Of a DNA stretch of 42,942 nucleotides, positions 6,670 through 42,942 are shown piece by piece. Under the pieces are notes generated by a model. It did no database searches, was not told where the DNA came from, and was given only the letters and a program-made list of their open reading frames with translations. Made by a program: the position numbers and the translations under genes. This DNA comes from Sedimentisphaerales bacterium. GTDB taxonomy: Bacteria > Planctomycetota > Phycisphaerae > Sedimentisphaerales > Anaerobacaceae. The first letter of the stretch is position 1; each line of letters starts with the position of its first letter. The DNA lies in NCBI GenBank assembly GCA_030603595.1, contig JAUVXL010000005.1, positions 1 to 42,942 on the forward strand, given 5' to 3'.

Positions 6670-6672
6670 ACG

Positions 6673-6678
6673 CTTTCC
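6673..6678 (-). promoter_or_regulatory. Ribosome binding site that decides the glycosidase-CinA start
   Basis: The minus strand reads GGAAAG three bases before the ATG at 6669. It supports a start there rather than at the in-frame ATG codons at 6705 (inside the repeat arm) or 6858 (beyond the repeat). Confidence 0.4.
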
Positions 6679-6699
6679 AACTAATTCTCGCGCCCTATC

Positions 6700-6801
6700 T
6701 GTCATCCTGAACGTAGCGCAGCGCAGTGAAGGATCTGGCTTGTATGCTTGAGGGCTCGCTAATTCCGAAGCCAGATCCTTCGCCTTCGGCTCAGGATGAC
6801 A
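6700..6801. repeat. 102-bp MITE/REP-like palindromic element
   Basis: The ends form a perfect 11-bp inverted repeat, TGTCATCCTGA (6700-6710) and TCAGGATGACA (6791-6801). Inside, GAAGGATCTGGCTT (6728-6741) pairs perfectly with AAGCCAGATCCTTC (6768-6781). The central 26 bases are unpaired. Read in frame it gives a C-H-P-E-P-K-A-K-D-L peptide, a hallmark I know from interspersed palindromes in several bacterial phyla. It encodes no transposase, so it would need one elsewhere. It lies in the spacer between the two glycosidase genes and could form a long hairpin in their shared transcript. Confidence 0.8.
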
Positions 6802-6889
6802 ACTCAACGCTCCCTGAGAATTTTTTAGAATCCGCATCAGTGACTTGTCGGGATACATTGTCTTATCTCCGGTATGCAGGGCTTGCGGT

Positions 6890-15700: not shown

Positions 15701-16313
15701 TATATCGACTCTTGAGGATGGAAACAACATACTGGCCATCCAGGGGATAAATGACGACACCGACAGTTCCGATTTCCTTATCTCTGCTGAATTGGAGGCT
15801 TCGATCACGGAGATCGACCCTGGGAGCTTTCCTTACGAAGACGACCTGGACGTTCTGGCCGGCCTGCGGATAACCGAGCTGATGTACAACGCACCGGGCG
15901 GCAGCAACTTCGACTACGTTGAGCTGCAGAATATCAGCGGCACGCCGATCCAACTCGAAGGCGTGCGGTTTCTCGATGGGATTGTCTTTGAGTTCGGGTC
16001 CAAGCTGCTCGGCGCGGGTCAGTACGTTGTTGTTGTGAGCAATCTGACGGCTTTTCGCAATGAGTATGGCTACACGGCCGATGTCGCGGGCGAATATACC
16101 GGCGGTCTCAGCGGCGGCGGAGAGGATATTGTCCTTGCGCTGGCCTGGCCTCTGGAGGCGGCGGTAATGAGGTTCGAATACAGCGACGCATGGTATCCGA
16201 CCACCGACGGCGGCGGCGATTCGCTGCACATCAACGACGCAACAGCCCATCCTTACCTCTGGAACGAAGCCGAGAACTGGCGCGCCGCATTCCCCAGCCC
16301 CGGCACGCCATAA
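9798..16313 (+). CDS. Giant secreted protein: dockerin-like repeats, lamin-tail domains, CotH kinase, beta-helix
   Basis: The 2171-aa product has a signal peptide (1-24). Two dockerin-like EF-type repeats follow at once (about 29-52 and 61-83, each D-x-D-G…D-F/L…W). Lamin-tail (LTD) domains start near 92, 238, 1524, 1671 and 2022, each opening I-N-E or I-x-E and carrying E-L-Y-N or similar. A CotH-like kinase region spans about 555-900, with D-Y-A-M-Y-R-G near 816 and the metal-binding type L-P-H-D-L-D near 832. Residues about 1100-1420 look like a right-handed parallel beta-helix (repeated I-Y-N-S-L-F / A-R-N-T-F / K-G-N-I-F turns). Residues 1790-2000 form a jelly-roll-like region. CotH homologues phosphorylate proteins; here the kinase would act outside the cell. 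The N-terminal dockerin position is typical of this bacterial group. No PEP-CTERM tail is visible. Confidence 0.9.
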   Translation: MLRPKNLLLCATALIFLFVCSIDAGCPVGDVHQDGDCEVNWLDLQDFAEEWLNSGCSAPDCRADLDGVPGVNMRDFAVLAENWGQSGSITLVINEFMASNDGMIEYPEGSGNYPDWFEIYNYGEEDIDIGGMYVRDDSHWHLIPTGYSSQTTVKAGGHLLLWADSGLPAGPLHVGFGLGKSSDEIGIYDENRNPIDVVPFSNQVDDMSRGRLPDGSNNWVTFEIGGATPGYENRDKPVEILISEIMYHPDHAENTPENIREEYIELYNDGEEAVALLGWRFTNGINYTVTDDITLGVGRYYVIASDVNAFKAKYPAVTNVVGGWEGRLSNSGEKIELVDHAGVLVDVVQYADQGDWAIRQLGPVDHEHRGWMWADDHDGDGDSLELINPGVSNEYGRNWAASTGSGGTPGATNSVAASDIAPLILDMEHFPIIPGPSAPVTVTARIIDELATGVTVTLHHRLDGEPTFNMVTMFDDGTHGDGGADDGVYASEIPAQTDGKIVEFYVRASDAAANSRTWPAASDVDGTPHQVTNALYQVDNSYNADAAWVPGSQPVYYIIMIETERAELEDIGDGGDPFFGEARSNAQMNATFISVDGVDTKVRYSTGVRNRGNRTRAQPPNNHRVNFAHDRPWKGVTALTINSKYPHLQVIGSAMFRLAGLPAPKATAVQLRVNGENLAKSDYSRMYDSYVAMEVYDSDWADNHFPDDDAGNLYRCTYVKLPTGGTTYGDLDYKEPPGETPDPDDYRDNYPKQTNQSQDDYSDLFNLIDKLNNSGIADANLLEEVGRVANLDQWMRYMAADALAGNREGGLYEGEGDDYAMYRGVIDPRFRLLPHDLDTLFGQGDHTYRPDWEIFSYTHVAGLRRLFDQDEMWKAYYGQYKELAETVFAPENVNSVVDQLLASWVPQSEIEGTNGIKQFVIERSKSILYGGYPGVADDPQIPQSFAIDCDLAVADGFYRTTGGVVGSDNIHGRANAIETSSVLVNGRMANWSQRYGTWVLNEGLGLNPGINRIFVRAFDGPDGTGDEADSGHIDIWCDDGDVSTISGTIASNTILDAASGPWHVTGDIIVPSSRTLTLQPGTTMFFDAGRGITVQTGGRLVAEGTEYNRIRLTSVPGGSNWDGVKFDDTLEDNRLSYLDHEFGDGQGESTDVQYSRVTIDNVTWSGTNTRILNIDHPSVICRNSVFPSISGTEPVHGVGLEDDEYIIFDGCLFGTASGYNDVIDFTHAQRPGPVFQIYNSLFIGGGDDGVDLDSVDAHVEGNVFMNFHGGGGDGTSNAVSTGDEGWPSEIYVARNTFIDNDHAVLLKEDSFMHAQNNVVTGSDVAVVVFGEPYRSPPRDPGKGARMKGNIFWNNAAMFEYFFEEPLPTYGPTGEVVVDYSMLPWQWHYLGVGNTDGDPLFVDGDGGDFTLKPDSGAIGAGAWGLDMGALVPAGAAISGEPYAVTYHTDATLTVGGPGIVSYKYSVNSPTGPWSAEISVDVPIELTGLTNGQSYTVYAFGKNSAGVWQSQESPVASHTWTIDTSHSELVINEVLAHTHGTDPDIIELYYDGPAPIDLTGMGLTDDPDEPTKFEFNSGSILATTMNPGDYMILYGDLTTTTNHLGFALSADGEGLYLYDKANPDGSRDLIDSVEFGPQINDYSIGRVGYDREWKLNKLTFGTANIVQPLGDPAQLKINEWLANGQVLFDDDFIELYNPHPQPVVLGGMYLTDNPVTQPGKHRIVELSFIPPQGFTVFQVNDGNDPSELDFKLSADGEMIGLFNGDLNMIDQVLYGPQTTDVSQGRAPDGSADYDFFGLPTPGASNPQPPTLITTTTVLAPENAAKRVFVPTGPGTSDNWRGGGPFDDSLWNHGDYISGKAGGVGYDQRSDYLPFITYDVRQLMDDDVNPGANPSVYVRTPFTVDGSKFGDYTGLKLKVRYDDGFVPYINGVELVTARRNFTGTPAWDSTANGDHEAGRGDFDVEIDIFDYISTLEDGNNILAIQGINDDTDSSDFLISAELEASITEIDPGSFPYEDDLDVLAGLRITELMYNAPGGSNFDYVELQNISGTPIQLEGVRFLDGIVFEFGSKLLGAGQYVVVVSNLTAFRNEYGYTADVAGEYTGGLSGGGEDIVLALAWPLEAAVMRFEYSDAWYPTTDGGGDSLHINDATAHPYLWNEAENWRAAFPSPGTP

Positions 16314-28245: not shown

Positions 28246-30597
28246 ATGAGTGAACTGAATCTGACATTTGTTGACAAAGCTATCGAGAGAATCGGCGGCG
28301 GAAAAGAGAAGGTTCTCGAGATACTCCAGGCTGTTCAGGGCGAGTTCGGCTATCTGCCCACAGAAGCCCTCGAGCGCATCTGCGAACTGACCGAGATAAC
28401 TCCCGCGGCAATTACCGGTGTTTCAACTTTCTACGACCAGTTCAGACATCGACCGGCAGGGCGTTATATGGTTCGAGTCTGCATCGGGACCGCTTGCTAC
28501 GTCAAGGGCGGCCAACAGGTGTATGATGCCTTTCAACGCTATCTCAGTATCCCGGAGGGAGAAGATACGGACCCGGAGAAGCTCTTTACTGTTGAGAAAG
28601 TGGCGTGCCTGGGATGCTGTATGCTTGCACCGGTAATACAGATTGAGGATGTTACCTACGGGCACTTGGTTGTGGAGCAGGTACCCGCAGTCTTGAGGGA
28701 CTTCCTCGAGCAGGAAAGAACTCGCGATCGGCAGAAGGGCGCGCCCGACCGCGCAGAAGCAGGCGCCGAGTATGGCGAAATCCGTATTTGCGTTGGTTCC
28801 AGTTGTGTCGCCGGCGGCAGCGCCAAAGTGTATGAGGCATTGAAAAAGGCTGTCAAAGAAACCGCTGTTCCGGCCGTGATCAAGAGTGTCGGCTGTTCGG
28901 GGATGTCTTTCCTGGCCCCCTTTGTCGAAGTGGTTCCGGCCAATGGCGCTTCGTTTCGCTATGCAGGGGTCCGGCCCGAGAATACCAAAGCTATTGTGCT
29001 TAGGCATTTCAAGCCGAAGACAATCAAGCCCAAAATCAAAAATGCTATATCGACTATGTTGGATAAAATACTTACCGACAAGGCATGGGAACCCGTCACA
29101 CGATATTCGGTGGATGTTCGCGATCAGCCGGTAGCGGATTATTTGGGCAAACAGATCCATATCGCTACCGAGCACTGCGGACATATAGACCCCGTTGACC
29201 TCGATGAGTATTCCAGCTACGGCGGATTCGACGCGCTGGAAAAGTGTGTAAAGCAAATCCAACCCGAGCAAATTATCGCTGAGATTGAAGAGAGCGGACT
29301 TTGCGGCAGGGGAGGCGGAGGATTTTCCACGCATCTAAAATGGACTGCCGTGCGGAACGAAAAATCACAAAAGAAGTATATAGTCTGCAACGGCGACGAG
29401 GGCGATCCCGGCGCCTTTATGGACCGAATGCTGATGGAGTCCTACCCATATCGTATCATCGAAGGTATGGCAATAGCTGCCTGCGCCGTCGGCGCCGATG
29501 AAGGTTATCTCTACATTCGTGCCGAATATCCCCTGGCAATCGAGCGGGTGGCCCGGGCGATTGATGTTTGCAAAAAGCGTGGTTTGCTGGGTGACAACAT
29601 TTTCGGCAGTGAATTCTCGCTGGCCTTGAAAATCGTCCCCGGCGCCGGAGCATTTGTCTGCGGCGAGGAGACCGCCCTGATGGCCAGCATCGAAGGTCGC
29701 CGCGGCATGCCCCGTCTTCGGCCTCCCTACCCCGCCCAAAGCGGGCTTTGGGGAAAGCCCACCCTTATCAACAACGTCGAAACCTATTCGGCCGTACCCT
29801 GGATTATTCGCAGCGGCGCCGCAGAATTCGCACGCCTCGGAACGTGTGCCAGCAAAGGAACAAAGGTCTTCGCACTCGCAGGCAAGATAGCTCGCGGAGG
29901 CCTGATAGAAGTGCCGATGGGTATTTCAATACGCGAGATTGTCCAGGACATCGGCGGCGGCATAGGGGGCGGCCTGCGCCTCAAGGCTGTGCAGGTGGGA
30001 GGGCCTTCCGGCGGATGCGTCCCGGCCCAACTGGCCCATACACCCGTCGATTACGAAACCCTCAAAGACGTCGGAGCAATGATGGGATCGGGAGGACTCG
30101 TTGTCTTGGATGAAACCGACTGCATGGTCGATATCGCAAGGTACTTCCTCGATTTCACCCAGAACCAGTCCTGCGGAAGGTGTACATTCTGTCGCGTCGG
30201 CACCCGGCGAATGCTCGATATCCTCGAAAGACTCTGCGCAGGCCAAGGAAAGAAAACCGATATCGACGAACTCGAGCACTTAGCTGAAATAATTAAGGCT
30301 TCCAGTCTCTGCGGACTGGGAAAGACCGCCCCGAATCCCGTCCTCTCCACGATCAAGTATTTCCGCAGCGAGTACGAGGCCCACATCGAAAAACGCTGCC
30401 CCGCCGGCAAATGCAGGGCGCTAATCACGTATTCGGTAACGGACGATTGCATTGGCTGCACCCTCTGCGCTCAGCACTGCCCGGCCGACGCAATCGAGTG
30501 TAAGCCTTATGAAAAGCATGAGATCGACAACGAAAAATGTATCCGCTGCGGGACATGCAAGAATATATGTCCCGCTGACGCCATTAAAGTTGAGTAG
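28246..30597 (+). CDS. NuoE-NuoF fusion: NADH-oxidising flavoprotein with multiple iron-sulfur sites
   Basis: The 783-aa cytoplasmic protein joins NuoE and NuoF functions. Residues 1-160: NuoE-type thioredoxin-like [2Fe-2S] domain with C79-x4-C84 and C121-x3-C125. Residues about 175-260: a second thioredoxin-like domain with C182-x4-C187 and C217, but Ser where the fourth Cys is expected (G-C-S-G-M-S). Residues about 350-690: NuoF core with G-R-G-G-G-G-F (FMN/NADH), the C-N-G-D-E-G-D-P-G-A-F segment, the G-E-E-T-A-L loop and the N3-type [4Fe-4S] site C643, C646, C649 and C689. Residues 735-783: a 2[4Fe-4S] ferredoxin tail (C735…, C765…). The tail and second domain resemble beta subunits of bifurcating hydrogenases, but no hydrogenase gene is here. 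No clear ribosome binding site precedes the ATG. Confidence 0.93.
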   Translation: MSELNLTFVDKAIERIGGGKEKVLEILQAVQGEFGYLPTEALERICELTEITPAAITGVSTFYDQFRHRPAGRYMVRVCIGTACYVKGGQQVYDAFQRYLSIPEGEDTDPEKLFTVEKVACLGCCMLAPVIQIEDVTYGHLVVEQVPAVLRDFLEQERTRDRQKGAPDRAEAGAEYGEIRICVGSSCVAGGSAKVYEALKKAVKETAVPAVIKSVGCSGMSFLAPFVEVVPANGASFRYAGVRPENTKAIVLRHFKPKTIKPKIKNAISTMLDKILTDKAWEPVTRYSVDVRDQPVADYLGKQIHIATEHCGHIDPVDLDEYSSYGGFDALEKCVKQIQPEQIIAEIEESGLCGRGGGGFSTHLKWTAVRNEKSQKKYIVCNGDEGDPGAFMDRMLMESYPYRIIEGMAIAACAVGADEGYLYIRAEYPLAIERVARAIDVCKKRGLLGDNIFGSEFSLALKIVPGAGAFVCGEETALMASIEGRRGMPRLRPPYPAQSGLWGKPTLINNVETYSAVPWIIRSGAAEFARLGTCASKGTKVFALAGKIARGGLIEVPMGISIREIVQDIGGGIGGGLRLKAVQVGGPSGGCVPAQLAHTPVDYETLKDVGAMMGSGGLVVLDETDCMVDIARYFLDFTQNQSCGRCTFCRVGTRRMLDILERLCAGQGKKTDIDELEHLAEIIKASSLCGLGKTAPNPVLSTIKYFRSEYEAHIEKRCPAGKCRALITYSVTDDCIGCTLCAQHCPADAIECKPYEKHEIDNEKCIRCGTCKNICPADAIKVE

Positions 30598-30705
30598 GAG
30601 AATTCCGCCACAAAGACACAGAGTTGAAAGTGAGCTAACAAGCCTCGACCGTAAGCCTGTCCCCAAGGGGGGAGGGGGTTTTATCCCGGCTAAAGTGAAC
30701 CAACA
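30598..30705 (+). other. 108-bp spacer with repeat-like debris
   Basis: This spacer separates two genes that otherwise look like partners. It contains CCACAAAGACACAGAG, a phrase I recall from interspersed repeats in planctomycete-like genomes, and a G-rich run (about 30664-30678). No good promoter or open frame is seen. The start codon of the next gene at 30706 has no clear ribosome binding site. Confidence 0.3.
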
Positions 30706-32313
30706 ATGCCGAAACTGAAAATAGACAATCGCGAAGTTGAAGTCCCCGCCGGCGCGACCATTCTCGACGCCGCCGCCAGGCTCCGAATCGATATCCCCAC
30801 CCTCTGCTTCCTAAAGGGTTGTGACCCTTCGACGAGTTGCATGGTCTGCGTGGTCAAGATCGACGGATTGCCCAACCTTGTTCCTGCCTGTGCGACGGTT
30901 GCCACAGACGGCATGCAAGTCGAGAGCGATTCAGAAGAGGTCCGCGAGGCCAGAAGGGCGGCCTTGGAGTTGCTCTTGAGCGATCACCTCGGCGATTGCA
31001 TGGGCCCCTGCCAGATGACGTGCCCGGCCAGGATGGATATTCCCCTTATGATTCGACAGATTGCCGCCGGTCGGCTTGCCGACGCGATTGTCACGGTCAA
31101 AAAAGATATTGCCCTGCCTGCCGTCCTCGGACGGATCTGCCCGGCGCCTTGCGAAAAGTCCTGCAGGCGGGCGGTCCACGACCAGGCCCTCTCGATTTGC
31201 CTGTTGAAGCGTTACGTCGCCGATGTCGATCTACAGTCCGACAAGCCCTACCTGCCCCAATGTAAGCCAAGCAGGTCCAAGCGAGTCGCGATAATCGGCG
31301 CCGGACCGGCCGGCTTGGCCGCCGCTTACTACCTGAGCCAAGACGGCTTCGATTGCACGATCTTCGACGACCACGATGAACCCGGCGGGATGCTGCGCTA
31401 TGCTCTATGTAGCACGGGCATCCTGCCCGTCTCTTGCAATCATCGCAAGGATGCCGATGCCACAAAGCTCCCTCGCGATGTACTCGACAAAGAAATTACC
31501 TCGATTATGAAATTGGGCGTCGAGTTTCGCCCCGAAACGCGAATAGGCGATAAGATATCGATACAGGACCTGCAAAGGGATTCCGACGCCGTCTTTATCG
31601 CAGTCGGCAAGTTGGAGCAAGCCGATGTCGAGGCGATGGGCTTGGAAGCGGGCAAGAATGGGATTGCTATAGAGGCCGGGACTTACCAGACTTCGCTGCC
31701 CGGCGTCTTCGCAGGAGGCGACGCCGTGCGCAATCGCAAGCTCGCCGTTCGCTCAGTCGCAGACGGCAAAGAGGCAGCAGCTTCCATAGCCCAATACATC
31801 CTCGGCCAACCGGTAACGGGGCCTGAGAGACCGTTCAACACGCGCATCGGCAGGTTAAAAGAAGACGAGATCGAAATCTTCCTCAATAACGTCAGCGACA
31901 AATCCCGCGTCCAGCCGACCGCCGATGACGGCGGATTCTCCGACGACCAGGCCCGCGACGAAGCGGCACGATGCCTCCATTGCGACTGCCGCAAGCCTCA
32001 AACGTGCAAATTGAGACGATACGCAAAGGAATATGACGCCAAGCCCAGCCGTTACCAGGGCCCTCGACGCCTGTTTTCGCAAATCCTTGAACACCCGAAC
32101 GTGATTTACGAGCCGGGCAAGTGTATCGACTGCGGCATCTGCATTCAGACTGCCGCCAAGGCCGGCGAAGAACTGGGCCTGGCATTTGTTGGCCGCGGCT
32201 TCGATGTAAGAGTCGCCGTCCCGTTCGACCGCTCACTCGCCGAAGGCCTCAAAAAAGCCGCAAGTCAATGCGTCGAGTCTTGCCCAACCGGAGCCCTCGC
32301 CTTCAAAAACTGA
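30706..32313 (+). CDS. NuoG/GltD-like FAD iron-sulfur protein lacking the NAD(P)H Rossmann insert
   Basis: The 535-aa protein starts with a NuoG-type [2Fe-2S] domain (C34-x10-C45-x2-C48-x13-C62). A GltD-like N-terminal iron-sulfur region follows (C98, C102, C106-P; C145-P-x-x-C149-x3-C153). The FAD fold opens with G198-A-G-P-A-G203 and closes with F-A-G-G-D (335-339). Between these, GltD relatives carry a second G-x-G-x-x-A/G nucleotide-binding domain; here it is absent. Residues 235-253 translate an inserted palindromic element. The C-terminal part (about 420-535) has C-L-H-C-D-C and a NuoG/hydrogenase-like stretch, C-I-D-C-G-I-C … C-V-E-S-C-P-T-G-A-L. Without its own NAD(P)H site it may take electrons from the NuoE-NuoF fusion upstream. 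It could serve in flavin-based bifurcation; that is inference. Confidence 0.88.
   Translation: MPKLKIDNREVEVPAGATILDAAARLRIDIPTLCFLKGCDPSTSCMVCVVKIDGLPNLVPACATVATDGMQVESDSEEVREARRAALELLLSDHLGDCMGPCQMTCPARMDIPLMIRQIAAGRLADAIVTVKKDIALPAVLGRICPAPCEKSCRRAVHDQALSICLLKRYVADVDLQSDKPYLPQCKPSRSKRVAIIGAGPAGLAAAYYLSQDGFDCTIFDDHDEPGGMLRYALCSTGILPVSCNHRKDADATKLPRDVLDKEITSIMKLGVEFRPETRIGDKISIQDLQRDSDAVFIAVGKLEQADVEAMGLEAGKNGIAIEAGTYQTSLPGVFAGGDAVRNRKLAVRSVADGKEAAASIAQYILGQPVTGPERPFNTRIGRLKEDEIEIFLNNVSDKSRVQPTADDGGFSDDQARDEAARCLHCDCRKPQTCKLRRYAKEYDAKPSRYQGPRRLFSQILEHPNVIYEPGKCIDCGICIQTAAKAGEELGLAFVGRGFDVRVAVPFDRSLAEGLKKAASQCVESCPTGALAFKN
31409..31463. repeat. About 55-bp palindromic repeat inserted in frame in the FAD protein
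   Basis: The left arm GTAGCACGGGCATCCTGCC (from 31409) and the reverse complement of the right arm, GTGGCATCGGCATCCTTGC (31445-31463), are imperfect copies of one sequence. The forward translation contains S-T-G-I-L-P-V and D-A-D-A-T, which I recognise as a frequent planctomycete repeat peptide. It replaces the usual R-Y-G-I-P-x-Y-R-L-P loop after the FAD-binding M-L-R-Y and before L-P-R-D-V-L. The frame continues on both sides. Confidence 0.75.
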
Positions 32314-32558: not shown

Positions 32559-35500
32559 ATGAACAGTCCACATTCCACCATAATTGCAGTCTTTCTTGCC
32601 ATTAGCTTTGCCCTCTCGTCGCCGGGCATTGCCGTCGAGGGCGAATCCGGCAAAGACGCCCCCGCCAAGGTTTACGTCCCCTATGAGGACCTAAAGGGTG
32701 TTTTCGAGAAGGCCGATCAGGGCGTATTCCTGCCTTACAAGGACTTCCAGAAGCTCTGGCGGTCCGCTCAAGGCAAGCCGGCAGGCGTTGCCAAGGCCCC
32801 ATTTGAGTACCTCGTCAGCACCGCGAAGTTTCAGGGCAAGGTCGTCGAAGAACTTGCGACTATTCGCCTGGAACTGACAATTGACGTCCTTGCCGAAGAT
32901 TGGGTCCAGATACCCGTAGGGCTCGGCGGAGTCGCTGTGGCGCAAGCAACCTTGATCGAGACTGAAAATGCCAAGGTCGTGCCACTGCTGCGAGTGGACA
33001 AAGGCCAGTACATCTTCGTGACCAAGGGCAAAGGCCGTTACGTGCTCGCGTTGGATTTTGTCCGCCAGCTCGAGACCCAGCCCGGATTGGCCGTAGTCGA
33101 TTTCCGCATACCATCCGCCGCAATCACAACCCTCGAGCTGCTCATCCCCGAAGAAAACCTGAAAGTGGACGTTCAGCCCATGCTCGCCGCCACGACATCC
33201 CAGGTCGAGGCCGACGGCGTCAAATCGACAAAGCTACAGGCCTTTCTCGGAGCCGCCAGGCAGGTCCGCCTGAGCTGGAAGCCGAAGACCGAGGCCGTCG
33301 CCGAGCTTGAGCCGGTCCTAATCTGTGAGCAATTCCAGCATATAAACATTGACGAAGCCCTCATAAACTATGAAACGAAGCTGGACTACAGTATCCATCG
33401 CGGAGGCGTCGATGAGCTTACAATAAAGCTGCCGAGCGAGTTTCGAGTAACCGACGTCGCCGGAGCCAATATCGCCAAATGGGAGATCAAGCCCGCGGCC
33501 AACGCGCAGACCCTCAGCGTCAAGCTATTCGCCCCCGCAAAAGGCAAATACACGCTCACAATCAAGACCGAGCGCTTCCTCCAGGAGACCCAGGCGAAGA
33601 TTCCGCTCTCGCCGATTACCACAGAGCAAGTATTCCGCCGAAGCGGCCTGATAGGAATCACCAGTTCCCCCCGTCGCTCGGTCCACCTTGAAGATATCAA
33701 GAATCTCGCCCGCGTGGATACGGGCCAACTGCCCAAGAATCTCCAGAATAGGCCCGGCGTAACGGCCTACCGCTTCATCACCTCGGACTACAGCGGCACA
33801 ATCGCCATTGAAACCGCCTCGTCCCGAATTACGGTAGATCAGTCCTGGATGCTGGGAGTCGATAGCGACCGCCTTGAATTGCGAGGCAGGCTTCATTACA
33901 AGGTCGAGCGAACCGGCATTTTCGAACTTAATATGAACCTGCCCGAGCCATGGAAGCTCGAATCGGTAGAGCCGCCGGATCTCGTGGACGATTTCCAGTT
34001 GAAAGGCGCCGGAAAGAGTCGCCTGCTCCATATACTGCTCAAGAAAGAGAGAATAGGCGAGTTTGACCTGACGCTAACCGCTCGAGCCGACCGCCCGCAG
34101 CCGAATAGCCCCGTCGATTTCACCCTCCCGCTCGCCGACGCCAACGATCTCCACTTGTACCGGGGCCAGTTGATGCTGCTTTTGCCCAACCAGCTTCAGG
34201 CCCAACTCGATGATGTGCGGCAATTGCAGGCCATTCCTCTCAAGCAGGCCCGGAGTTGGACCAAGATGGCCGGCCTCGCCCCGGCGATGGCGTTCGAGTT
34301 TCGCGCCGTTGATCGCGACAAACCCGCCGGTGGAAAGTTCAAAATCGATGTCAAGCCCGTCCAGATCTCCGCTACCGTTCATCGTCTCGTGAACATTCAG
34401 CCCGGCTCGGTTGAGCAGGAAGCCGTAGTGCAGTATCGCATTCGCTACGCCCCCGTAGATACCTTCTATCTGAAAATGCCCGCCGAACTGGCTTATGCCG
34501 GCGTGCAGATTTCCGGCGCCAATATCAAGGAAAAGCCGCGCATAGACAAGCTTCCACCCGACCAGCAAGCCGAGCCAAACCAGCCCGCCCCCGACCAGAT
34601 AGACTGGGCGTATTACAAAATCGTACTCCAATCCAAGGTAACAGGCAGCTATCAGCTCAGCGTACGGTCGCGTAAGCCCTTCCAGGCCGGCAAGGTGGGC
34701 GCCCCTGCCGTAGTAGCACTGGAGCCGATCCTCGCGGCCGGACGCCTCTCCGACCAGAACGGCCACATCGCCGTAGCGAAAGCCGAGACACTCGCCATCG
34801 GTCAGCCGACAATCAAGAACCTAAAACCCGCCGACCCAAGCAGCGCGACCGACCTACCCTATGAGTCCCATCGCCGCCTCGCCGCATTGGCCTTCAAGTA
34901 CGATTCGGCCGATTTCGCATTGTCGTTGCCTGTAGTCGCGCAGAAGGAGGCAACCGTATTCACCACAATCGTAAGCGGCGCAATTATCGAGCAGGTCCTG
35001 GCCCGCGACGGAACGCTCAATACGCACGCGACTTACCTGCTCGCCACCAGCCAGGGCGACAGGCTGCCAATAACCCTCCCTGAGAACCACAAACTAACCG
35101 CCGTGCTATTGAACGGCAACGAGGCCCCCACGGAGATGGGCCTCAAGCCGGACGAGCGCATCGTTCGCTTGCCCCCCTCGGCCGGACAGGTATCGAAGTT
35201 CGTCCTCGAAATCGCCTACAGTCTCGACGGAGCCTCGCCCTCCAATCTGGCGGCGCCCCGGCTTCCCAAGGAAATTCCGGTCCAGCAGACCCTCTGGCGG
35301 CTGTGGATTCCGGAAGATACTTCTTTCCTGGGGTACGACCGTGTCTTTGCACGTCTCCAGCCTTATCAGGGGCACAACATGCTGCAGACTTTCCAGAAAA
35401 ATCAGTCCGCCGCCGTCGCCTTCAAGCTATCCGGTCAGGGCCAGGAGCTTCATTTCGTCCGGCAGGGAGCGCCGGGTGAGTTGTCGGTCCTGCTCGTTGG

Positions 35501-35897
35501 CAAGGAGATTTTCAGCATAGTCATCTGGGTTGTGATCATAGGCACCGGGATTTTGATGCTCAAACTTACCGGCTTCCACCGCGTTATCGTCATATTGGCC
35601 GCGGGGCTGATCGCAGGGATTACTCACCTGTACCTGCCGCTGCTGGTGGGTAAAGTGCTCGAGGCGGGCATATTCGCCGCGATTCTTGTGCTGCTCCTAT
35701 GGATGGCGTACTGGGTGTTCGGGAAAATCCCACAGTTGCAATCGAGCTTGGCGGCGCTGCGACAAACCACTTCGCTCAGAGTTGGCAACGCCAAGAAGAA
35801 AGAGCCCGCCGGAGGCGGGCCAAAATCAAAAAACGCTCAAAAACCGCAGGCCCCTGACCAAAAGCAACAGGAGCAGTCAAAAAAGGATCAGGAGTAG
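32559..35897 (+). CDS. Large envelope protein with V-P-Y motifs and C-terminal membrane helices
   Basis: The 1112-aa product has a signal peptide (about 1-24). A short motif follows at about residues 36-70: V-Y-V-P-Y-E-D-L, then V-F-L-P-Y-K-D-F-x-x-L-W. The long middle (about 80-970) is beta-rich, with repeated Ig-like or sandwich strands (V-P-V/I-G-L-G-G-V-A-V). From about 975 to 1060 there are three or four membrane helices. The tail (about 1075-1112) is rich in Lys, Gln and Pro and probably faces the cytoplasm. I do not recognise a named family. The N-terminal motif and the strand pattern recur twice in the next gene. The stop is four bases before the next start, so both are in one operon. 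A scaffold role in the envelope is inference only. Confidence 0.85.
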   Translation: MNSPHSTIIAVFLAISFALSSPGIAVEGESGKDAPAKVYVPYEDLKGVFEKADQGVFLPYKDFQKLWRSAQGKPAGVAKAPFEYLVSTAKFQGKVVEELATIRLELTIDVLAEDWVQIPVGLGGVAVAQATLIETENAKVVPLLRVDKGQYIFVTKGKGRYVLALDFVRQLETQPGLAVVDFRIPSAAITTLELLIPEENLKVDVQPMLAATTSQVEADGVKSTKLQAFLGAARQVRLSWKPKTEAVAELEPVLICEQFQHINIDEALINYETKLDYSIHRGGVDELTIKLPSEFRVTDVAGANIAKWEIKPAANAQTLSVKLFAPAKGKYTLTIKTERFLQETQAKIPLSPITTEQVFRRSGLIGITSSPRRSVHLEDIKNLARVDTGQLPKNLQNRPGVTAYRFITSDYSGTIAIETASSRITVDQSWMLGVDSDRLELRGRLHYKVERTGIFELNMNLPEPWKLESVEPPDLVDDFQLKGAGKSRLLHILLKKERIGEFDLTLTARADRPQPNSPVDFTLPLADANDLHLYRGQLMLLLPNQLQAQLDDVRQLQAIPLKQARSWTKMAGLAPAMAFEFRAVDRDKPAGGKFKIDVKPVQISATVHRLVNIQPGSVEQEAVVQYRIRYAPVDTFYLKMPAELAYAGVQISGANIKEKPRIDKLPPDQQAEPNQPAPDQIDWAYYKIVLQSKVTGSYQLSVRSRKPFQAGKVGAPAVVALEPILAAGRLSDQNGHIAVAKAETLAIGQPTIKNLKPADPSSATDLPYESHRRLAALAFKYDSADFALSLPVVAQKEATVFTTIVSGAIIEQVLARDGTLNTHATYLLATSQGDRLPITLPENHKLTAVLLNGNEAPTEMGLKPDERIVRLPPSAGQVSKFVLEIAYSLDGASPSNLAAPRLPKEIPVQQTLWRLWIPEDTSFLGYDRVFARLQPYQGHNMLQTFQKNQSAAVAFKLSGQGQELHFVRQGAPGELSVLLVGKEIFSIVIWVVIIGTGILMLKLTGFHRVIVILAAGLIAGITHLYLPLLVGKVLEAGIFAAILVLLLWMAYWVFGKIPQLQSSLAALRQTTSLRVGNAKKKEPAGGGPKSKNAQKPQAPDQKQQEQSKKDQE

Positions 35898-35901
35898 CCC
35901 C

Positions 35902-38900
35902 ATGAGATACTTCATACAACGAACCGGAAAAAGGCGTTTGGCCGGATTCATCAGGATAGCGACCTTGATAACTGTTGCGGTCGCGGCGGGGCGATTCATC
36001 TCTCCGACCCGCGCCGATGAATTCAAGCCAAATCTGTACGTTCCCTATAAGGACCTGGCCCATTTGATTGCACCGGTCGATAAAGCCGTCCTCATGGACC
36101 GCGCGAAATTCGCCAAGCTGCTCGCAGACGCCGAGGCCAACGCCGCCCTCGCCGATACCCTCGAGCTCGGACAGGTAAAGCTCGCCGAATACGCCGCAAA
36201 AGTCTCAGGCGAAGAGTTGACTTTGACCGGCAAACTGGAGGTCCTCTCCATTGGCAACGGCACCGTCGCCGTACCCTTGGGTTTTGGCGGAGTAGGGCTG
36301 ACCCGCGTGGTCCTCGACGGCAGGCCCGCGCCGTTAGGCTATAACAAGGACGGAAGATTGACGCTTATCGTACAGACCAAAGGCGACCACCAACTCGAAA
36401 TCGCCGGCACGACCAAGCTCAAGGAGCTTGCAAGCGGCGGCACGCAGTTCAGCATTGCCCTGCCCCAGGCCGTAGCCGGGCGCGTAAACCTCGCCGCCGC
36501 CGGCGATCTGGAGATTCACGCGACCGTGCCCGCCTCGGCGACCTCCTACGATAAGCCAACCGACACGACGAGCGTCGAGCTTACCATCGGCGGCATGGAC
36601 GAATTGGCCGTCGTCCTGCTCGGAAACGGCCGTCAGGAAGACGATCGCGCCATTCTGCTCGGCGACTCGGCCGCAACCGTGAATTTGACCAGATCGCACC
36701 AGGTGTTGAGTTGTCTCTATACCGTGCAGGTCCTGCGTCGCGGCGTAAGGCAGCTCCAATTCCAATTACCTAATCAATGGACCATAACCGAAGTCACTTC
36801 TCCGAACCTTGTCAAGTGGTCTGTTGAGGAGGCCGAGCAAATCAAAACGCTCAGCGTGCGCATGCGATCCGGCAAGGTCGGCACAACGGCGCTGCACATC
36901 AAGGCGACCGCGATCCGCACCGGCCAGTCTTGGAACGCCCCGCGAATCGCCCTTGTTGACGCCGCTTTCCAGCGGGGATTCCTGATGGTCAACACCGACC
37001 AGGCCCTCGGTGTGCGAGGCGAAAACGTCGTCGGAGCCCGCCGGGAGGATGCTTTAGCTGCCCGTTCTGTACCTGGTTTGGTCGGCGGTTCAACCGGACC
37101 GCTCTACTTTCACTGGGGCGACAAATGGTCCGTGAATCTGGAACTGGCCGATGTCGAACTCAAGCGAAGTATTAAAGAACAGCAGAAACTCGTTGTCTCG
37201 CCGCAGCAGGTGACCCTAACCGGCCTTTTCGAGGTAACGGCCGTCGAACGCGAGCTTTTTGACCTGTCCTTTGTGCTCCGCGGCTCGGCCTCTCAATGGC
37301 AGCTAAGAACAGTCCTAATTGACAACAAACAGACCGGCTTCGAGTATCGTATTGAAGAGCAGCCGTCCCGGCGACTGCTGAAGATCGAATTGCCTCGCCC
37401 GATACAGCCGGAGAAGACCGCCAACGTTACTATCGTTACCCAGCACGTCCCCGCAGAATGGCTCTGGCCCAGCGACGCCCCTGATCGCAGCATCACGGTC
37501 CCGCTTATCGAATCGCAGGCCGAGACTGTCTCAGGACACGTCTCGCTCTGGGCCGAGGGCGATCTGGACGCCGTTCCGAAAGAGGTTCCCGACCAACTCG
37601 AACCGGTCCCAGTCGGCCGGATGGCCTCGCTCGGAATGACAGGAGCAGTCCAACACGCCTACAGCCATAATAAGCCCGTGATAGGCGACATACAACTGCT
37701 CGTCTCCCGGCGTCGGCCGCGAACATCCGCCGACGCCATCGGCCTGATTAGCGTTCGACCACGCGAATTCTCAGCAGACTGGAGAATTACATACAACATC
37801 TCAAGGGCCTCGGCCAAGAGACTCTATCTGCTCGCCGACAAATCTCTCGGCCGCGAGTTCAACATCGCATCCGCAACAGTACCCATAAACTCCAAGAGCA
37901 TTCTAACGCCCGATGACAAATCAATTCCGCTCTCGCCCGAATTAGCCAATCGCTACAATCTCTGGCTGTTGAACCTCGACCACTCCAGTCTCGGCAACGT
38001 CGTAATCGACATCCGCTATGACAGGCCGCTTGCCGACGATGCTCTGGAACTGCCCCTCGTGCGACCGATATGCCGCGACCGGGGCCGAGTAAGCGAGCAG
38101 TTGGCCATCCAGGCCAGCGAAGAACTCGCGCTTAGGGCCGATGCAGGAGGCGCAAAGGAAATTGACGCAGTGGACCTACCCCCGCTGCCGGCCCAGGCCG
38201 CACGAATCTTATGGGCATTCCGACTCGATGCCCCCGCAACGCCGGATGGAGCCAAAACAACTCTTACCCTCGAGACGGACGTTCACGAAGGCTACGAAAT
38301 CCCATCGGCATTGGCCGTCTCGGCGCACTTGACGACGTATCTCGACACCGAGGGCGGCCAGCGAAGCGAAGCGGAATTTACGGTCGCAAATGCCGGTCGC
38401 CAGTTTCTCACTATTCGCCTGCCCCAAGGTGCCGAGCTTTGGTCCCTGCGAGTCGCCGACAGGCAGGTCAAGCCCCAACGCAGCGCCGCCGGAGATTACC
38501 AGGTATCTCTCGGCAGGTTGGGCAAGCCCGTCCCGGTGAAAATCGTTTATTCCTATCGACCCCCAAAGTCCAGCCTCGAACGCCTGAATCTCGGCGGCAT
38601 CGAGCTTCCAGGCGTCGAGATAAACCAGATGAACTGGACCGTAGTCCCCCCGCCCGGCTACCGCATAACCACACAACATACAAAAATGCTAACACACGAC
38701 CTACCCCGGCCCACCCCCGCCTATCTAAAACTCTACGAATTCCTGACAGAAAATGCCTTTGCCGGCTCGCCATTATTGATGACTGCACTGACTACAGCAC
38801 ATCAGAAAGATTTCGATATTGCCGGTGACCGCGCTCTCGCGAAGTATGAGATCGAAGTCGCAGCCGAGGACGCAGAAATCCCGGCCCTCCCGGCTGAAAA

Positions 38901-41900
38901 GCAGAGACGCGAGACAGAAGAGTCGTATAGGCGTAGGCTGTCTACGGACCCGCAGCCCAAGGCCAAACCCGCAAAACCGCCTACAAAAAAGGATTTGGGA
39001 GTTAAGCTTCTCGCCGAAGGCCGCTCGACATTGCCCGTCGATTTGGCTCCCACCGCCGGCGCGGGTCGCCGGGCTACGTTCGCCGGGCTCGGCACGGCCG
39101 CCTTGACTATCGGCCTGACAAGAACCGCATGGATGTCGTCCTGCTGGGCCGTGGGATTTGCGCTGATAGCAGTTATAGGAATCATGCTTGTCCGGCAACG
39201 GCCAAAGGCCAAGGCGACGATGGTAATCGTTATTCTATCCGTCGCGTCCTTACTCGCCCTCTGGCGACCCGCCATGGTCTATTTCGCCAACGGAGCCTTC
39301 ACCGCGGGCCTCTGTCTCATCCCCCTCTATGTGTTCGCTGCTTTCATCCGGTTGTTATGGTCGAAGCTGCACCAGACCGGCGTTCCGGGCGGCGCTTCTG
39401 CAACGGCCGCTGTACTGTTTGCCTGCATATTGAGCTTCGGCTGTTCGGCCCAGGCGGCAGTGACTGCCAAGGCCGGTTCCGCCCCGGCAATACAGCCCGC
39501 CCCAGGCGGGCCGCTCCCCACTCAACAGGCCAAAAAAACACCCCAACCGATAGAACCAAAGCAATCTGAGCCCCTCATTATTCCCTACGATGAAGACCCC
39601 ACCGCGGCGGAAGACTCGAACAAAGTCCTCATCCCCTACGCGCGTTTCATCAAGTTATGGAACCAGGCCCATCCGGACGATATTATTGAGCAGTTGCCCC
39701 CGGCGATGGAAGTCTCCCTCGCGGCCGTGCGCTACGAGGTCAGAGTCGAAAGCGAGATATTGAACCTGCTGCTCACAGCCGACATCAAGACTTACGGGCC
39801 CGATTGGGTCGTCCTCCCCATGCCCATATCAGGCCTCGCCGTAGTAGAAGCCACTATTGACGGCAAACCCGCACAATTCCACAGCCCACCACAACCTCAG
39901 GGCAAAAAGGCCGTCCCCAATAGTATGGTTCTAATGCTTCCCGCCAAGACGTCCGGCCAACTGAGGCTCAAGGCCGTCGCAAAGCCCAAAAACTTCGGAC
40001 GAAGGGGCACTGCCAAATTCTCCCTGCCGCCCCTGCCAGGCGCCGTGATGGACGTCATTCTGCCCGCCGAAGACCTCGAACTCGAAGTCAATGGACTCGA
40101 AAGCGCCCCCTCCCCCCAAAAAGCAAACGGGAAAACTAAGTGGATAGTCCCGCTGGGAATGACCAGAGAACTGACATTGCGATGGCTGCCCGAAGCCGGC
40201 GGAGGCGCAACCGACAGCACACTCTCCGCCGCCTCCACACACGATGTCTATGCATTCCACTGGGCCATCGTAGGTCTCAGCAAGATTGCCTACAGCTTCT
40301 CAGGCGGCGAACACGACAGATTCGCACTGCTCACCCCCAAAGGCACAACCCTGACCGAAGTCAAAGGCACAAACATCCGCGATTATCGCGCCCTCGGCGA
40401 GAGAACTATCGACGGCAAGACGTTCAACCTGATAGAAGTCCGTCTCCACCGCCCCGCAAAAAAGCAATACGACCTCACAGTTCGCTGGCTGGGCGAGCTG
40501 CCGCCGCCCGATGAGCCCGTCCAGTTGCTCCTCGTCAGGGCAGCCGATGTTAGCCGTGAGAGCGGCGCGGTTACATTGCATTCCGCCGGCGGCATGGCCG
40601 TGAAGGTCGCTAAGGTCTCCGGCGGTCGAAGGACAGCCGTTGCCGCCACGAAAGATTCACGCGCTGCGGAGTTGACCGCCGACAAGGCCAGGCCCGTAGC
40701 TGGCTACTATTGGCCGTACAGACCGTTCGCATTGTCCGTGCAACTGTCTCGCCTGACTCTCAGCCCCAAGGTCCGTCTCGATCAGCTCGTGCGTATCAGC
40801 ACCGACAGGACCGAGTTGCTCGTCCAGGCCGCCCTTACCACCGAGCAGGGCAAGCTCTTCGGTGCAAGCTTCATCCTGCCCGCCGGCTACGAGCTGCTCA
40901 GCGTCGTAGGGCCTGCCGTCGAGAATTTCTACGAGCGTACGAGCGACGACCGAAGGTTTCTGCACGTCAAATTCGACCGAGGACGAAAAGATGCGAAGAT
41001 AGCGATGGTCCTGGTCCGCAGGAACGCCCCGCCTAAAGACTTTGATGTCCCGCTGATTACCTACATTGATTCCGCCGCCCCTGCGCCGAAGCAGCAGGGA
41101 CGCCTTGCCGTTCAACTGGCCGCGTCGCTGGAGGCAAAGACCCTCAGCAGCAAAAACCTCAAGGCCATCGTGCCCGGCACGCTGAAAGACTGGCTCGATT
41201 CTAATCAAATCAATTCGGTCCAATTTGCCTACAGTTATGAACTGGCCGATCCGTCGCTGGAGTTGGATATTCGTCCCGAGCCTACGCGCATTCGCGTCGA
41301 GGCCTTTGCCGGCCTCGCCGTCAAGACCACCGCCGCCGTTTACACATATCGTCTCCGATACAACATCAGCGGCTCGCCAATCGACAATCTGAGCTTCAGC
41401 CTGCCAACTAAATATGCCCCGCTCGTCGCAGTCAATTCGCCGGCTATGCGAAGTATCACCAAATCGCAAGCAGATGGCCGAACAACTTGGAAAGTTGTAC
41501 TCGTAAACGAAGTCACCGGCGAAGTCGATATCGCCGTCAATTTCGCCCTGCCTATCGACGCAGCCACAAAGCTGCTCTCGATCCCGCGCATCGAGACCGA
41601 CGCTCCTGCGGGCTATCGCGCGATCATCGCCGTCCAGAACCTCTCACGACACGACATAAACGTCAAGGACGAGAACAAGACGAATCTCACCGAGCTTGCC
41701 GTCAGCGAACAGCGAAAACTAATGTCACGCCGGATGACCGAATCTCTACAATACGTCTTCCAATCGTTCGAGGACAATTGGTTCCTCACCCTCGACTTCA
41801 CCCCCGCCAAGACGGCCACCCGCATTCAGGCGGTAGTCGACCTACTGGCCCTGACCACCGTCATCGACCGCAACGGCAGATGCCGTTACCAGGCCAGGCT

Positions 41901-42942
41901 CGCCCTGCAGAACCGCAGCGAGCAATTCCTAACTGTTGAAGTCCCGTCGGGCCTGCGCCTCTGGAGCGCCACAGTCGCCTCCCAGCCGGTAAAGCCGGTC
42001 ACAACCTCGACCCGGGGTCAGGTCCTGATACCACTGGTCAAGACTTCTCCCGGCGGCTTGCCCTATGACGTCTATCTCTATTTTGCCGACGAGCCCCCAG
42101 GGGGCGAGCAAGCCCAGCCTCTAATTGAGCCGTTGAACGGAATCACCAATCTCAAGCCGCTCGCCATCTCAATTGCAGGCATCCCCGTCATGCGAACCAC
42201 CTGGTCGCTGCGCCTGCCCGCCGGTTACCGCTATATGCGCCCGGGCGGAAATATGTCGCCCGTCGCCGGCACGGTCGAAATGCTCAGCCTCAATATCGAC
42301 GCCAGGCTCGACCAGCTCAAACGCCTCGATAAGACCTACCGCAATGTTTCCGGCTCATCCAGCCGCACCGAGCTTATCGCCCGACATAACTGGGATATTT
42401 CCAACACAAAGCTCAACATAGACATCGAGCAGGCCCAATCTTTCCTCGAAGCCAACCGAGGACAGGTCAGCGAGGACGATTACAGGCGACTGAGCACAAA
42501 ATTAGGCGGGCAAAAGCTAAAACAGGTCACACTCATTGGCGCCAATACCTCGTACATCCAGGAGCAGCAGGAGCAGGCCCGCTACGATTTGAACGTATGG
42601 ATCAACGCCGAGGCAGTCAACCCCGGCCTCGCCGAGAACCTCCGCAATGACGCCCTGCAGCAAAAGCCCGAATTCATCAGACAGGGTGAAGAGCAGCAGA
42701 TAGCCCGCCTCACAAAAGAGCTCGAAGTATCCCAGAAGCGCCTAAAGGTCCTCCAGCAGCAGGCCGACAAAGTCACGACCGAAGACATGATCCTTCATGA
42801 CGCCGATACCGACGCCATCGGCGCAAAGACCTTGCTGGGCGATGTCGGCCAAGAGGCGGCGGGCCTGATACTTGCCCCTCCCGATAAGAAGGCCGAGACG
42901 CGCGGAATATTGAAGGACCTATCCGAACAAAGTGCCGCTCAG
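35902..42942 (+). CDS. Very large two-module envelope protein, cut by the right edge
   Basis: The frame is open from the ATG at 35902 (AGGAG seven bases upstream) to the last base: 2347 codons without stop, so the C terminus is missing. A signal peptide (1-38, with K-R-R and ending T-R-A-D-E) precedes L-Y-V-P-Y-K-D-L (about 43). The first module (to about 1050) is beta-rich and shares V-P-L-G-F-G-G-V-G-L with the preceding protein's V-P/I-V-G-L-G-G-V-A-V. About 1053-1160 hold roughly three membrane helices, then a signal-like helix (about 1165-1190) opens the second module: L-I-I-P-Y-D-E-D and V-L-I-P-Y-A-R-F-x-K-L-W (about 1225-1255). Residues about 2255-2300 form a coiled coil (Q-I-A-R-L-T-K-E-L-E). 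The protein thus looks like two tandem copies of its neighbour. No enzymatic motif is seen; function unknown. Confidence 0.85.
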   Translation, partial: MRYFIQRTGKRRLAGFIRIATLITVAVAAGRFISPTRADEFKPNLYVPYKDLAHLIAPVDKAVLMDRAKFAKLLADAEANAALADTLELGQVKLAEYAAKVSGEELTLTGKLEVLSIGNGTVAVPLGFGGVGLTRVVLDGRPAPLGYNKDGRLTLIVQTKGDHQLEIAGTTKLKELASGGTQFSIALPQAVAGRVNLAAAGDLEIHATVPASATSYDKPTDTTSVELTIGGMDELAVVLLGNGRQEDDRAILLGDSAATVNLTRSHQVLSCLYTVQVLRRGVRQLQFQLPNQWTITEVTSPNLVKWSVEEAEQIKTLSVRMRSGKVGTTALHIKATAIRTGQSWNAPRIALVDAAFQRGFLMVNTDQALGVRGENVVGARREDALAARSVPGLVGGSTGPLYFHWGDKWSVNLELADVELKRSIKEQQKLVVSPQQVTLTGLFEVTAVERELFDLSFVLRGSASQWQLRTVLIDNKQTGFEYRIEEQPSRRLLKIELPRPIQPEKTANVTIVTQHVPAEWLWPSDAPDRSITVPLIESQAETVSGHVSLWAEGDLDAVPKEVPDQLEPVPVGRMASLGMTGAVQHAYSHNKPVIGDIQLLVSRRRPRTSADAIGLISVRPREFSADWRITYNISRASAKRLYLLADKSLGREFNIASATVPINSKSILTPDDKSIPLSPELANRYNLWLLNLDHSSLGNVVIDIRYDRPLADDALELPLVRPICRDRGRVSEQLAIQASEELALRADAGGAKEIDAVDLPPLPAQAARILWAFRLDAPATPDGAKTTLTLETDVHEGYEIPSALAVSAHLTTYLDTEGGQRSEAEFTVANAGRQFLTIRLPQGAELWSLRVADRQVKPQRSAAGDYQVSLGRLGKPVPVKIVYSYRPPKSSLERLNLGGIELPGVEINQMNWTVVPPPGYRITTQHTKMLTHDLPRPTPAYLKLYEFLTENAFAGSPLLMTALTTAHQKDFDIAGDRALAKYEIEVAAEDAEIPALPAEKQRRETEESYRRRLSTDPQPKAKPAKPPTKKDLGVKLLAEGRSTLPVDLAPTAGAGRRATFAGLGTAALTIGLTRTAWMSSCWAVGFALIAVIGIMLVRQRPKAKATMVIVILSVASLLALWRPAMVYFANGAFTAGLCLIPLYVFAAFIRLLWSKLHQTGVPGGASATAAVLFACILSFGCSAQAAVTAKAGSAPAIQPAPGGPLPTQQAKKTPQPIEPKQSEPLIIPYDEDPTAAEDSNKVLIPYARFIKLWNQAHPDDIIEQLPPAMEVSLAAVRYEVRVESEILNLLLTADIKTYGPDWVVLPMPISGLAVVEATIDGKPAQFHSPPQPQGKKAVPNSMVLMLPAKTSGQLRLKAVAKPKNFGRRGTAKFSLPPLPGAVMDVILPAEDLELEVNGLESAPSPQKANGKTKWIVPLGMTRELTLRWLPEAGGGATDSTLSAASTHDVYAFHWAIVGLSKIAYSFSGGEHDRFALLTPKGTTLTEVKGTNIRDYRALGERTIDGKTFNLIEVRLHRPAKKQYDLTVRWLGELPPPDEPVQLLLVRAADVSRESGAVTLHSAGGMAVKVAKVSGGRRTAVAATKDSRAAELTADKARPVAGYYWPYRPFALSVQLSRLTLSPKVRLDQLVRISTDRTELLVQAALTTEQGKLFGASFILPAGYELLSVVGPAVENFYERTSDDRRFLHVKFDRGRKDAKIAMVLVRRNAPPKDFDVPLITYIDSAAPAPKQQGRLAVQLAASLEAKTLSSKNLKAIVPGTLKDWLDSNQINSVQFAYSYELADPSLELDIRPEPTRIRVEAFAGLAVKTTAAVYTYRLRYNISGSPIDNLSFSLPTKYAPLVAVNSPAMRSITKSQADGRTTWKVVLVNEVTGEVDIAVNFALPIDAATKLLSIPRIETDAPAGYRAIIAVQNLSRHDINVKDENKTNLTELAVSEQRKLMSRRMTESLQYVFQSFEDNWFLTLDFTPAKTATRIQAVVDLLALTTVIDRNGRCRYQARLALQNRSEQFLTVEVPSGLRLWSATVASQPVKPVTTSTRGQVLIPLVKTSPGGLPYDVYLYFADEPPGGEQAQPLIEPLNGITNLKPLAISIAGIPVMRTTWSLRLPAGYRYMRPGGNMSPVAGTVEMLSLNIDARLDQLKRLDKTYRNVSGSSSRTELIARHNWDISNTKLNIDIEQAQSFLEANRGQVSEDDYRRLSTKLGGQKLKQVTLIGANTSYIQEQQEQARYDLNVWINAEAVNPGLAENLRNDALQQKPEFIRQGEEQQIARLTKELEVSQKRLKVLQQQADKVTTEDMILHDADTDAIGAKTLLGDVGQEAAGLILAPPDKKAETRGILKDLSEQSAAQ

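Follow-up and report, generated by a model that had tools for sequence, protein, structure and literature searches.

Three homologous modules in two giant planctomycete proteins are predicted to be membrane-anchored arrays of domains with the M1-aminopeptidase N-domain fold

The closest described counterparts of the two-gene system A-B analyzed here, in which protein A constitutes one module and protein B two (B1 and B2), were found at the level of predicted fold. The N-terminal domain of the M1 aminopeptidases (LTA4H, IRAP, ERAP2, and APN) shares its fold with the modeled domain 5 of A: most leading Foldseek matches superimpose ~100 residues at an rmsd of about 2.5-4.5 Å and ~15% identity, with a weak, non-significant sequence signal to LTA4H and no Pfam match. 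Unlike the M1 aminopeptidases, the modules would carry about five tandem copies of this domain each, without a catalytic domain and anchored in the membrane. Ribophorin I, whose family has two domains and one membrane helix, resembles the modules in having tandem non-catalytic M1-N-like β-domains on a membrane anchor (ribophorin I/Ost1). This likeness is a fold-level match, no ribophorin sequence family being detected in A, B1, or B2 with Pfam or NCBIfam, and the modules differ from ribophorin I/Ost1 in their approximately five domains and three helices and in the absence of OST-like neighbors. A related β-fold is matched in the inter-α-trypsin inhibitor heavy chains (VIT + VWA; Foldseek E 5e-5), whereas here VWA is a separate protein present at some loci only, and neither VIT nor VWA was matched by Pfam in A or B. 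Finally, YfbK-type VWA proteins and pairs of ECF sigma and zf-HC2 anti-sigma factors are found at the class II loci described below and at a few A-B loci, as partners and not as part of the module; they are absent beside the A-B genes analyzed here, and YfbK_C is missing from most A-B genomes tested.

Genes A and B occupy the end of the window, by which we mean the whole stretch of 42,942 nucleotides that was analyzed; it comes from a Sedimentisphaerales bacterium and represents an entire contig (G000:C335). Gene A encodes, in order, a signal peptide, PY motifs, approximately five β-domains, three membrane helices, and a charged C-terminal tail, and it is separated from gene B by 4 bases. The features of the pair are as follows.

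32559..35897, + strand: gene A, 1112 aa, one module; orthologs known
32559..32636, + strand: predicted N-terminal signal peptide of A, aa 1-26, with a hydrophobic segment at aa 8-26
32673..32768, + strand: double PY motif region of A, aa 39-70, YVPYEDL...GVFLPYKDFQKLW
32790..33308, + strand: domain 1 of A, aa 78-250, which diverges most among the repeats
33264..33758, + strand: domain 2 of A, aa 236-400, with repeat matches to domains 3 and 4
33744..34274, + strand: domain 3 of A, aa 396-572, with repeat matches to domains 4 and 5
34272..34883, + strand: domain 4 of A, aa 572-775, with a repeat match to domain 5
34851..35378, + strand: domain 5 of A, aa 765-940, predicted M1-aminopeptidase N-domain fold (AlphaFold, Foldseek)
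35505..35696, + strand: three predicted membrane helices of A, aa ~983-1046 (hydropathy and model)
35902..42942, + strand: gene B, B1 and B2 fused, 2347 aa readable without a stop, the frame being cut by the contig end
35902..39348, + strand: module B1, aa 1-1149, by profile match to the other modules
39136-39348, + strand: three predicted membrane helices of B1, aa 1079-1149 (hydropathy)
39382..39462, + strand: signal-peptide-like segment at the internal B1/B2 joint, TAAVLFACILSFGCSAQA, ending in CSAQA and read as a gene-fusion fossil
39517..42942, + strand: module B2, from aa 1206, starting LIIPY...VLIPYARFIKLW; its membrane helices fall past the contig end

The frame of gene B, whose orthologs encode about 2500-2600 aa, extends past the end of the contig, and its 3' end was found on a different contig of this genome (C87:2-667), where it terminates in hydrophobic helices. 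The double PY motif region of A forms two short helices in the AlphaFold model, and B2 contains a Q/E-rich stretch, probably a coiled coil, from about position 42304. All three modules follow a common plan of signal peptide, PY region with short helices, approximately five β-domains, and approximately three membrane helices; the membrane topology, predicted from hydropathy, is well supported at that level.

A first-pass annotation of this DNA had proposed three related modules across the two giant proteins. Profile-profile comparison of ortholog alignments bears this out and shows that A, B1, and B2 are homologous rather than unrelated, nearly end to end and at the coordinates proposed (profile E 7e-22 to 5e-24). 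The probabilities, E-values, and aligned columns are 99.4, 6.8e-22, and 961 for A and B1; 99.6, 5.1e-24, and 834 for A and B2; and 99.6, 4.9e-24, and 816 for B1 and B2. For comparison, A against column-reversed B1 and B2 gave E 0.08 and 0.21, and A and B2 against an unrelated protein of the window (2171 aa) gave E 0.19 and 0.25. A single-sequence search also pairs the modules (A with B2, E 4e-24; A with B1, E 7e-19). The V/L/I-P-Y motif that had been noted at the module starts has an invariant PY (P41 and Y42 of A) in all 17 aligned modules, and the strand patterns quoted with it are found in the sequence (VQIPVGLGGVAV, VAVPLGFGGVGL, and VVLPMPISGLAV). Similarly, the predicted membrane helices ascribed to the ends of the first two modules are seen, and in intact relatives they also terminate the third.

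Beyond what the first-pass annotation had described, each module consists of about five tandem copies of a β-domain of ~170 aa. The domain-repeat comparison was run on A, where domains 2, 3, and 4 match one another strongly (2-3, E 4e-24; 2-4, E 1e-21; 3-4, E 4e-22), domain 5 matches domain 3 (E 2e-11) and domain 4 (E 3e-7), and domain 1 shows weak matches to domain 5 (E 1.8e-5) and domain 4 (E 1.5e-4); reversed controls gave E 0.008 or worse. The five-domain layout is extended to B1 and B2 because both match A end to end. With domains repeated inside a module and modules repeated inside the gene pair, the architecture therefore reflects two layers of duplication.

Neither Pfam nor NCBIfam matched A, B1, or B2 above chance, phmmer found no match for A among PDB sequences, and Pfam searches with 49 members apiece for domains 5 and 3 produced scattered matches in few members. 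The earlier statement that no known domain can be recognized thus stands for sequence families but not for the fold of the building block, which structure prediction did recognize. The AlphaFold model of A, based on 49 orthologs, has a pLDDT of 83.8 and a pTM of 0.50, and therefore the individual domains are good and the arrangement between them, a straight rod or otherwise, is uncertain. In a Foldseek search with whole A, ribophorin I/Ost1 ranks first (E 5.5e-10, prob 1.0), followed by integrin α chains, the inter-α-inhibitor heavy chain, and LTA4H; the domains are arranged differently, and the TM-scores of whole A against ribophorin I/Ost1 (0.12-0.14 of the query) are accordingly low. When domain 5 was modeled alone (pLDDT 86.5, pTM 0.72), all of the 50 matches listed by Foldseek were M1 aminopeptidase N-domains (best E 2e-6, prob 1.0, TMq ~0.4-0.45). 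Its profile had LTA4H as the sole, non-significant match among PDB sequences (E 0.034), and the profile of domain 3 had no match there. The fold of the domain as that of the M1-aminopeptidase N-domain is well supported by these predictions, and on the models each module is most readily interpreted as an array of non-catalytic M1-N-like domains. No M1 zinc catalytic domain or Pfam peptidase was matched in A, B1, or B2, and the HExxH and GxMEN patterns gave three scattered matches, none conserved, in 121 module proteins; judged by these pattern searches, the modules are shown to lack a conserved catalytic motif.

Genomes were sampled within the phylum Planctomycetota. The module family was detected in 125 of 392 genomes (E 1e-5) and in 95 of the 98 near-complete genomes of family f35. 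Seven of the 25 sampled genomes of the window's own family have it when one protein is used as the query, and its presence there accompanies larger genomes (Mann-Whitney p 0.01). Each of the 35 scored pairs has gene A immediately upstream of gene B in the same orientation, no more than 153 bp apart, and no other neighbor is conserved around A-B at the relatives' loci.

On the phylogenetic tree, which was built with FastTree only and contains many long branches, A, B1, and B2 form three groups that branch in parallel across the phylum; the single exception, a protein labeled A, is a B1 module cut by a contig end. Since the three modules fall into separate clades, the triplication is older than the sampled families. 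A hydrophobic segment is present in 34 joints between B1 and B2, 16 of which have AxA within the expected distance, and in two genomes (G100, L086; G051, L089) the two modules are encoded separately, both beginning with a signal peptide. Together, the joint segments and the split genes are the expected traces of a gene fusion or of the reverse event, and the tree favors neither fused nor split B as the older state. The origin proposed by the first-pass annotation, in which one ancestral gene was duplicated and two of the copies became fused, is supported by the homology, by the three parallel clades, and by the signal-peptide-like joints. Versions with other module numbers were likewise found in related genomes: pairs of single-module genes (class III; L103, L104, and L105), two-module proteins (class II), and the split B. 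In several planctomycetes (L088, L080, L078, and L110) gene B encodes a B1 with an additional pair of membrane helices and a low-complexity insert of 200-300 aa before the final helices, both of which are missing in the window's family.

Relatives of the modules are linked to sigma and anti-sigma factors in some lineages. Class II loci combine an ECF sigma factor, a membrane anti-sigma protein (vWF_A, VWA, and YfbK_C), and a two-module protein of ~2200 aa, and one of them is present in the genome under study, on contig C355.

L129:4492-5139, - strand: sigma factor
L129:791-4420, - strand: anti-sigma/VWA protein
L025:3007-9624, - strand: two-module protein

In the anti-sigma/VWA protein of this locus, a Secretin_N domain (E 7e-9) separates the linker from the VWA part, and the HxxxCxxC zinc motif is absent. 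Every class II locus whose upstream DNA can be read has a VWA/YfbK_C gene directly upstream. Among 17 genomes with a YfbK_C match, a non-random set chosen for module proteins of ~2200 aa or class-II-like matches, YfbK_C is immediately upstream of the module gene in 15 and was not located in the other two. An ECF sigma gene is also present at ten loci, class II and A-B combined, and 9 such VWA proteins out of 15 match a MIDAS-like DxSxS pattern. Some A-B pairs are included in such clusters. The genes are arranged as sigma-VWA-A-B in one direction in G049 and G210 (L118 and L119), with frames that touch or overlap at most joints; as sigma-VWA-A in G195 (L123), in which the contig end truncates A; and as VWA-A-B in G103 (L094). 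In G069, an ECF sigma gene and a gene for an 1855-aa zf-HC2/VIT/VWA anti-sigma protein (L108:10971-16535), together spanning L108:10415-16535 on the + strand, are divergent from the neighboring A-B. The window has no ECF sigma or anti-sigma gene beside A-B. An obligate VWA partner for A-B was rejected, YfbK_C being absent from 16 of the 28 genomes with plain A-B; the sigma/VWA wiring is therefore probably an addition and not part of the core. We found no paper linking planctomycetes with VWA anti-sigma factors among the open access papers searched. The sigma/VWA link indicates that related assemblies can be connected to transcription.

We tentatively favor the interpretation that A and B together form a complex of three homologous rods in the envelope, anchored in the inner membrane, probably with a structural function and, in some lineages, coupled to ECF signaling. 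Each module would be exported, would fold into approximately five M1-N-like β-domains without a catalytic domain, and would re-enter the membrane by approximately three helices. A would be made alone and B1 and B2 would usually be covalently joined, so that one A and one B would supply three similar rods in a fixed 1:1:1 ratio. These could assemble into a rod or tower of pseudo-threefold symmetry that would rise in the periplasm and may serve as a structural scaffold or tether for the planctomycete envelope; in the lineages with a sigma operon, the state of the complex would probably be reported to transcription through the membrane anti-sigma protein (VWA, YfbK_C). That the triple A, B1, and B2 persists whether B is fused or split suggests that three subunits interact in a 1:1:1 ratio, and the three-gene version (L086 and L089) fits such an arrangement. 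The structural role in the envelope is proposed from the size of the proteins, their membrane anchoring, the missing catalytic motifs, and the near-universality of the family in f35; complex formation, stoichiometry, scaffold role, and signaling are all what we infer from such features.

Some of the same observations could be explained if the modules were primarily the sensor of an ECF sigma/anti-sigma system, in which a ligand or mechanical load on the β-array would act on VWA and cause release of sigma. The regular position of VWA/YfbK_C upstream of class II genes, the ten sigma-containing loci, the VWA genes joined to A or A-B at four loci, the MIDAS-like patterns, and the paralogous sigma/VWA locus on C355 all argue for it; nevertheless, most A-B pairs, including that of the window, have no sigma or VWA gene nearby, and more than half of such genomes (16/28) have no YfbK_C at all, and we regard this primary function as unlikely. 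A role like that of ribophorin I, with modules that hold or present substrates to a membrane enzyme or transporter in glycosylation, secretion, or polymer export, is less likely still. It would account for the top whole-protein fold match, to a subunit of the eukaryotic oligosaccharyltransferase that also displays non-catalytic β-domains on a membrane anchor, but the TM-scores of that match are low and neither an oligosaccharyltransferase nor any other enzyme gene is a conserved neighbor.

The long tandem arrays of β-domains, the integrin α chains among the fold matches, and the VWA partner in some lineages might instead indicate that the membrane displays a surface adhesin or a protein for contact between cells. 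We consider this improbable, since the approximately three membrane helices per module suggest anchoring in the inner membrane and since the near-universality across family f35 is unlike what is seen with variable adhesins. Despite the M1 N-domain fold, it is hardly conceivable that the modules are an M1-type peptidase, active or decayed, as they lack the catalytic domain, any conserved HExxH or GxMEN, and any Pfam peptidase match; peptidase activity was rejected on the missing motifs.

Planctomycetes have an enlarged and invaginated periplasm, and their envelope has long been debated in bacterial cell biology; we know of few building parts of it that have been named, and a survey of open access literature on giant or conserved unknown planctomycete envelope proteins found nothing relevant. 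A-B is a two-gene system of ~3,500 residues without a Pfam or NCBIfam family model, near-universal in f35 and triplicated before the sampled families diverged, and offers a concrete target for knock-out and structure determination, the sigma-linked versions providing a read-out of what the complex senses. If the favored interpretation of an anchored three-rod complex is right, A-B would be a bacterial case in which a peptidase domain is reused as a building block in the manner of ribophorin. In a bolder and rather doubtful version, A-B would be a core envelope machine of the Planctomycetota, a pseudo-threefold, inner-membrane-anchored tower of ~15 M1-N-like domains that organizes the unusually wide periplasm and from which the sigma-linked sensory versions are derived.

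The DNA upstream of gene A encodes redox proteins.

28246-32313, + strand: NuoE-NuoF-type fusion, then a Fer2/GltD-like protein, near three related PQQ-type propeller proteins (16538, 21847, and 26457)

The redox genes and the propeller gene at 26457 are retained before gene A in two near relatives (G002 and G015; L026 and L027). A functional link between A-B and the redox genes was rejected, as the latter are not seen beside A-B in G011, G019, and G020. Farther upstream, the 2171-aa protein (9798-16313, + strand) has a CotH kinase domain, five lamin-tail domains, and, by eye, a dockerin-like N-terminus. Two frames on the opposite strand also look composite by eye. One of 1175 aa (3331-6858, - strand) appears to be an odd fusion of a glycosidase-like N-terminal half, acidic repeats of Ca-binding type, and a CinA/MoCF-like C-terminal half, and the other, of 549 aa (1642-3291, - strand), appears to combine a lactonase-type β-propeller with a flavodoxin/WrbA-like domain.
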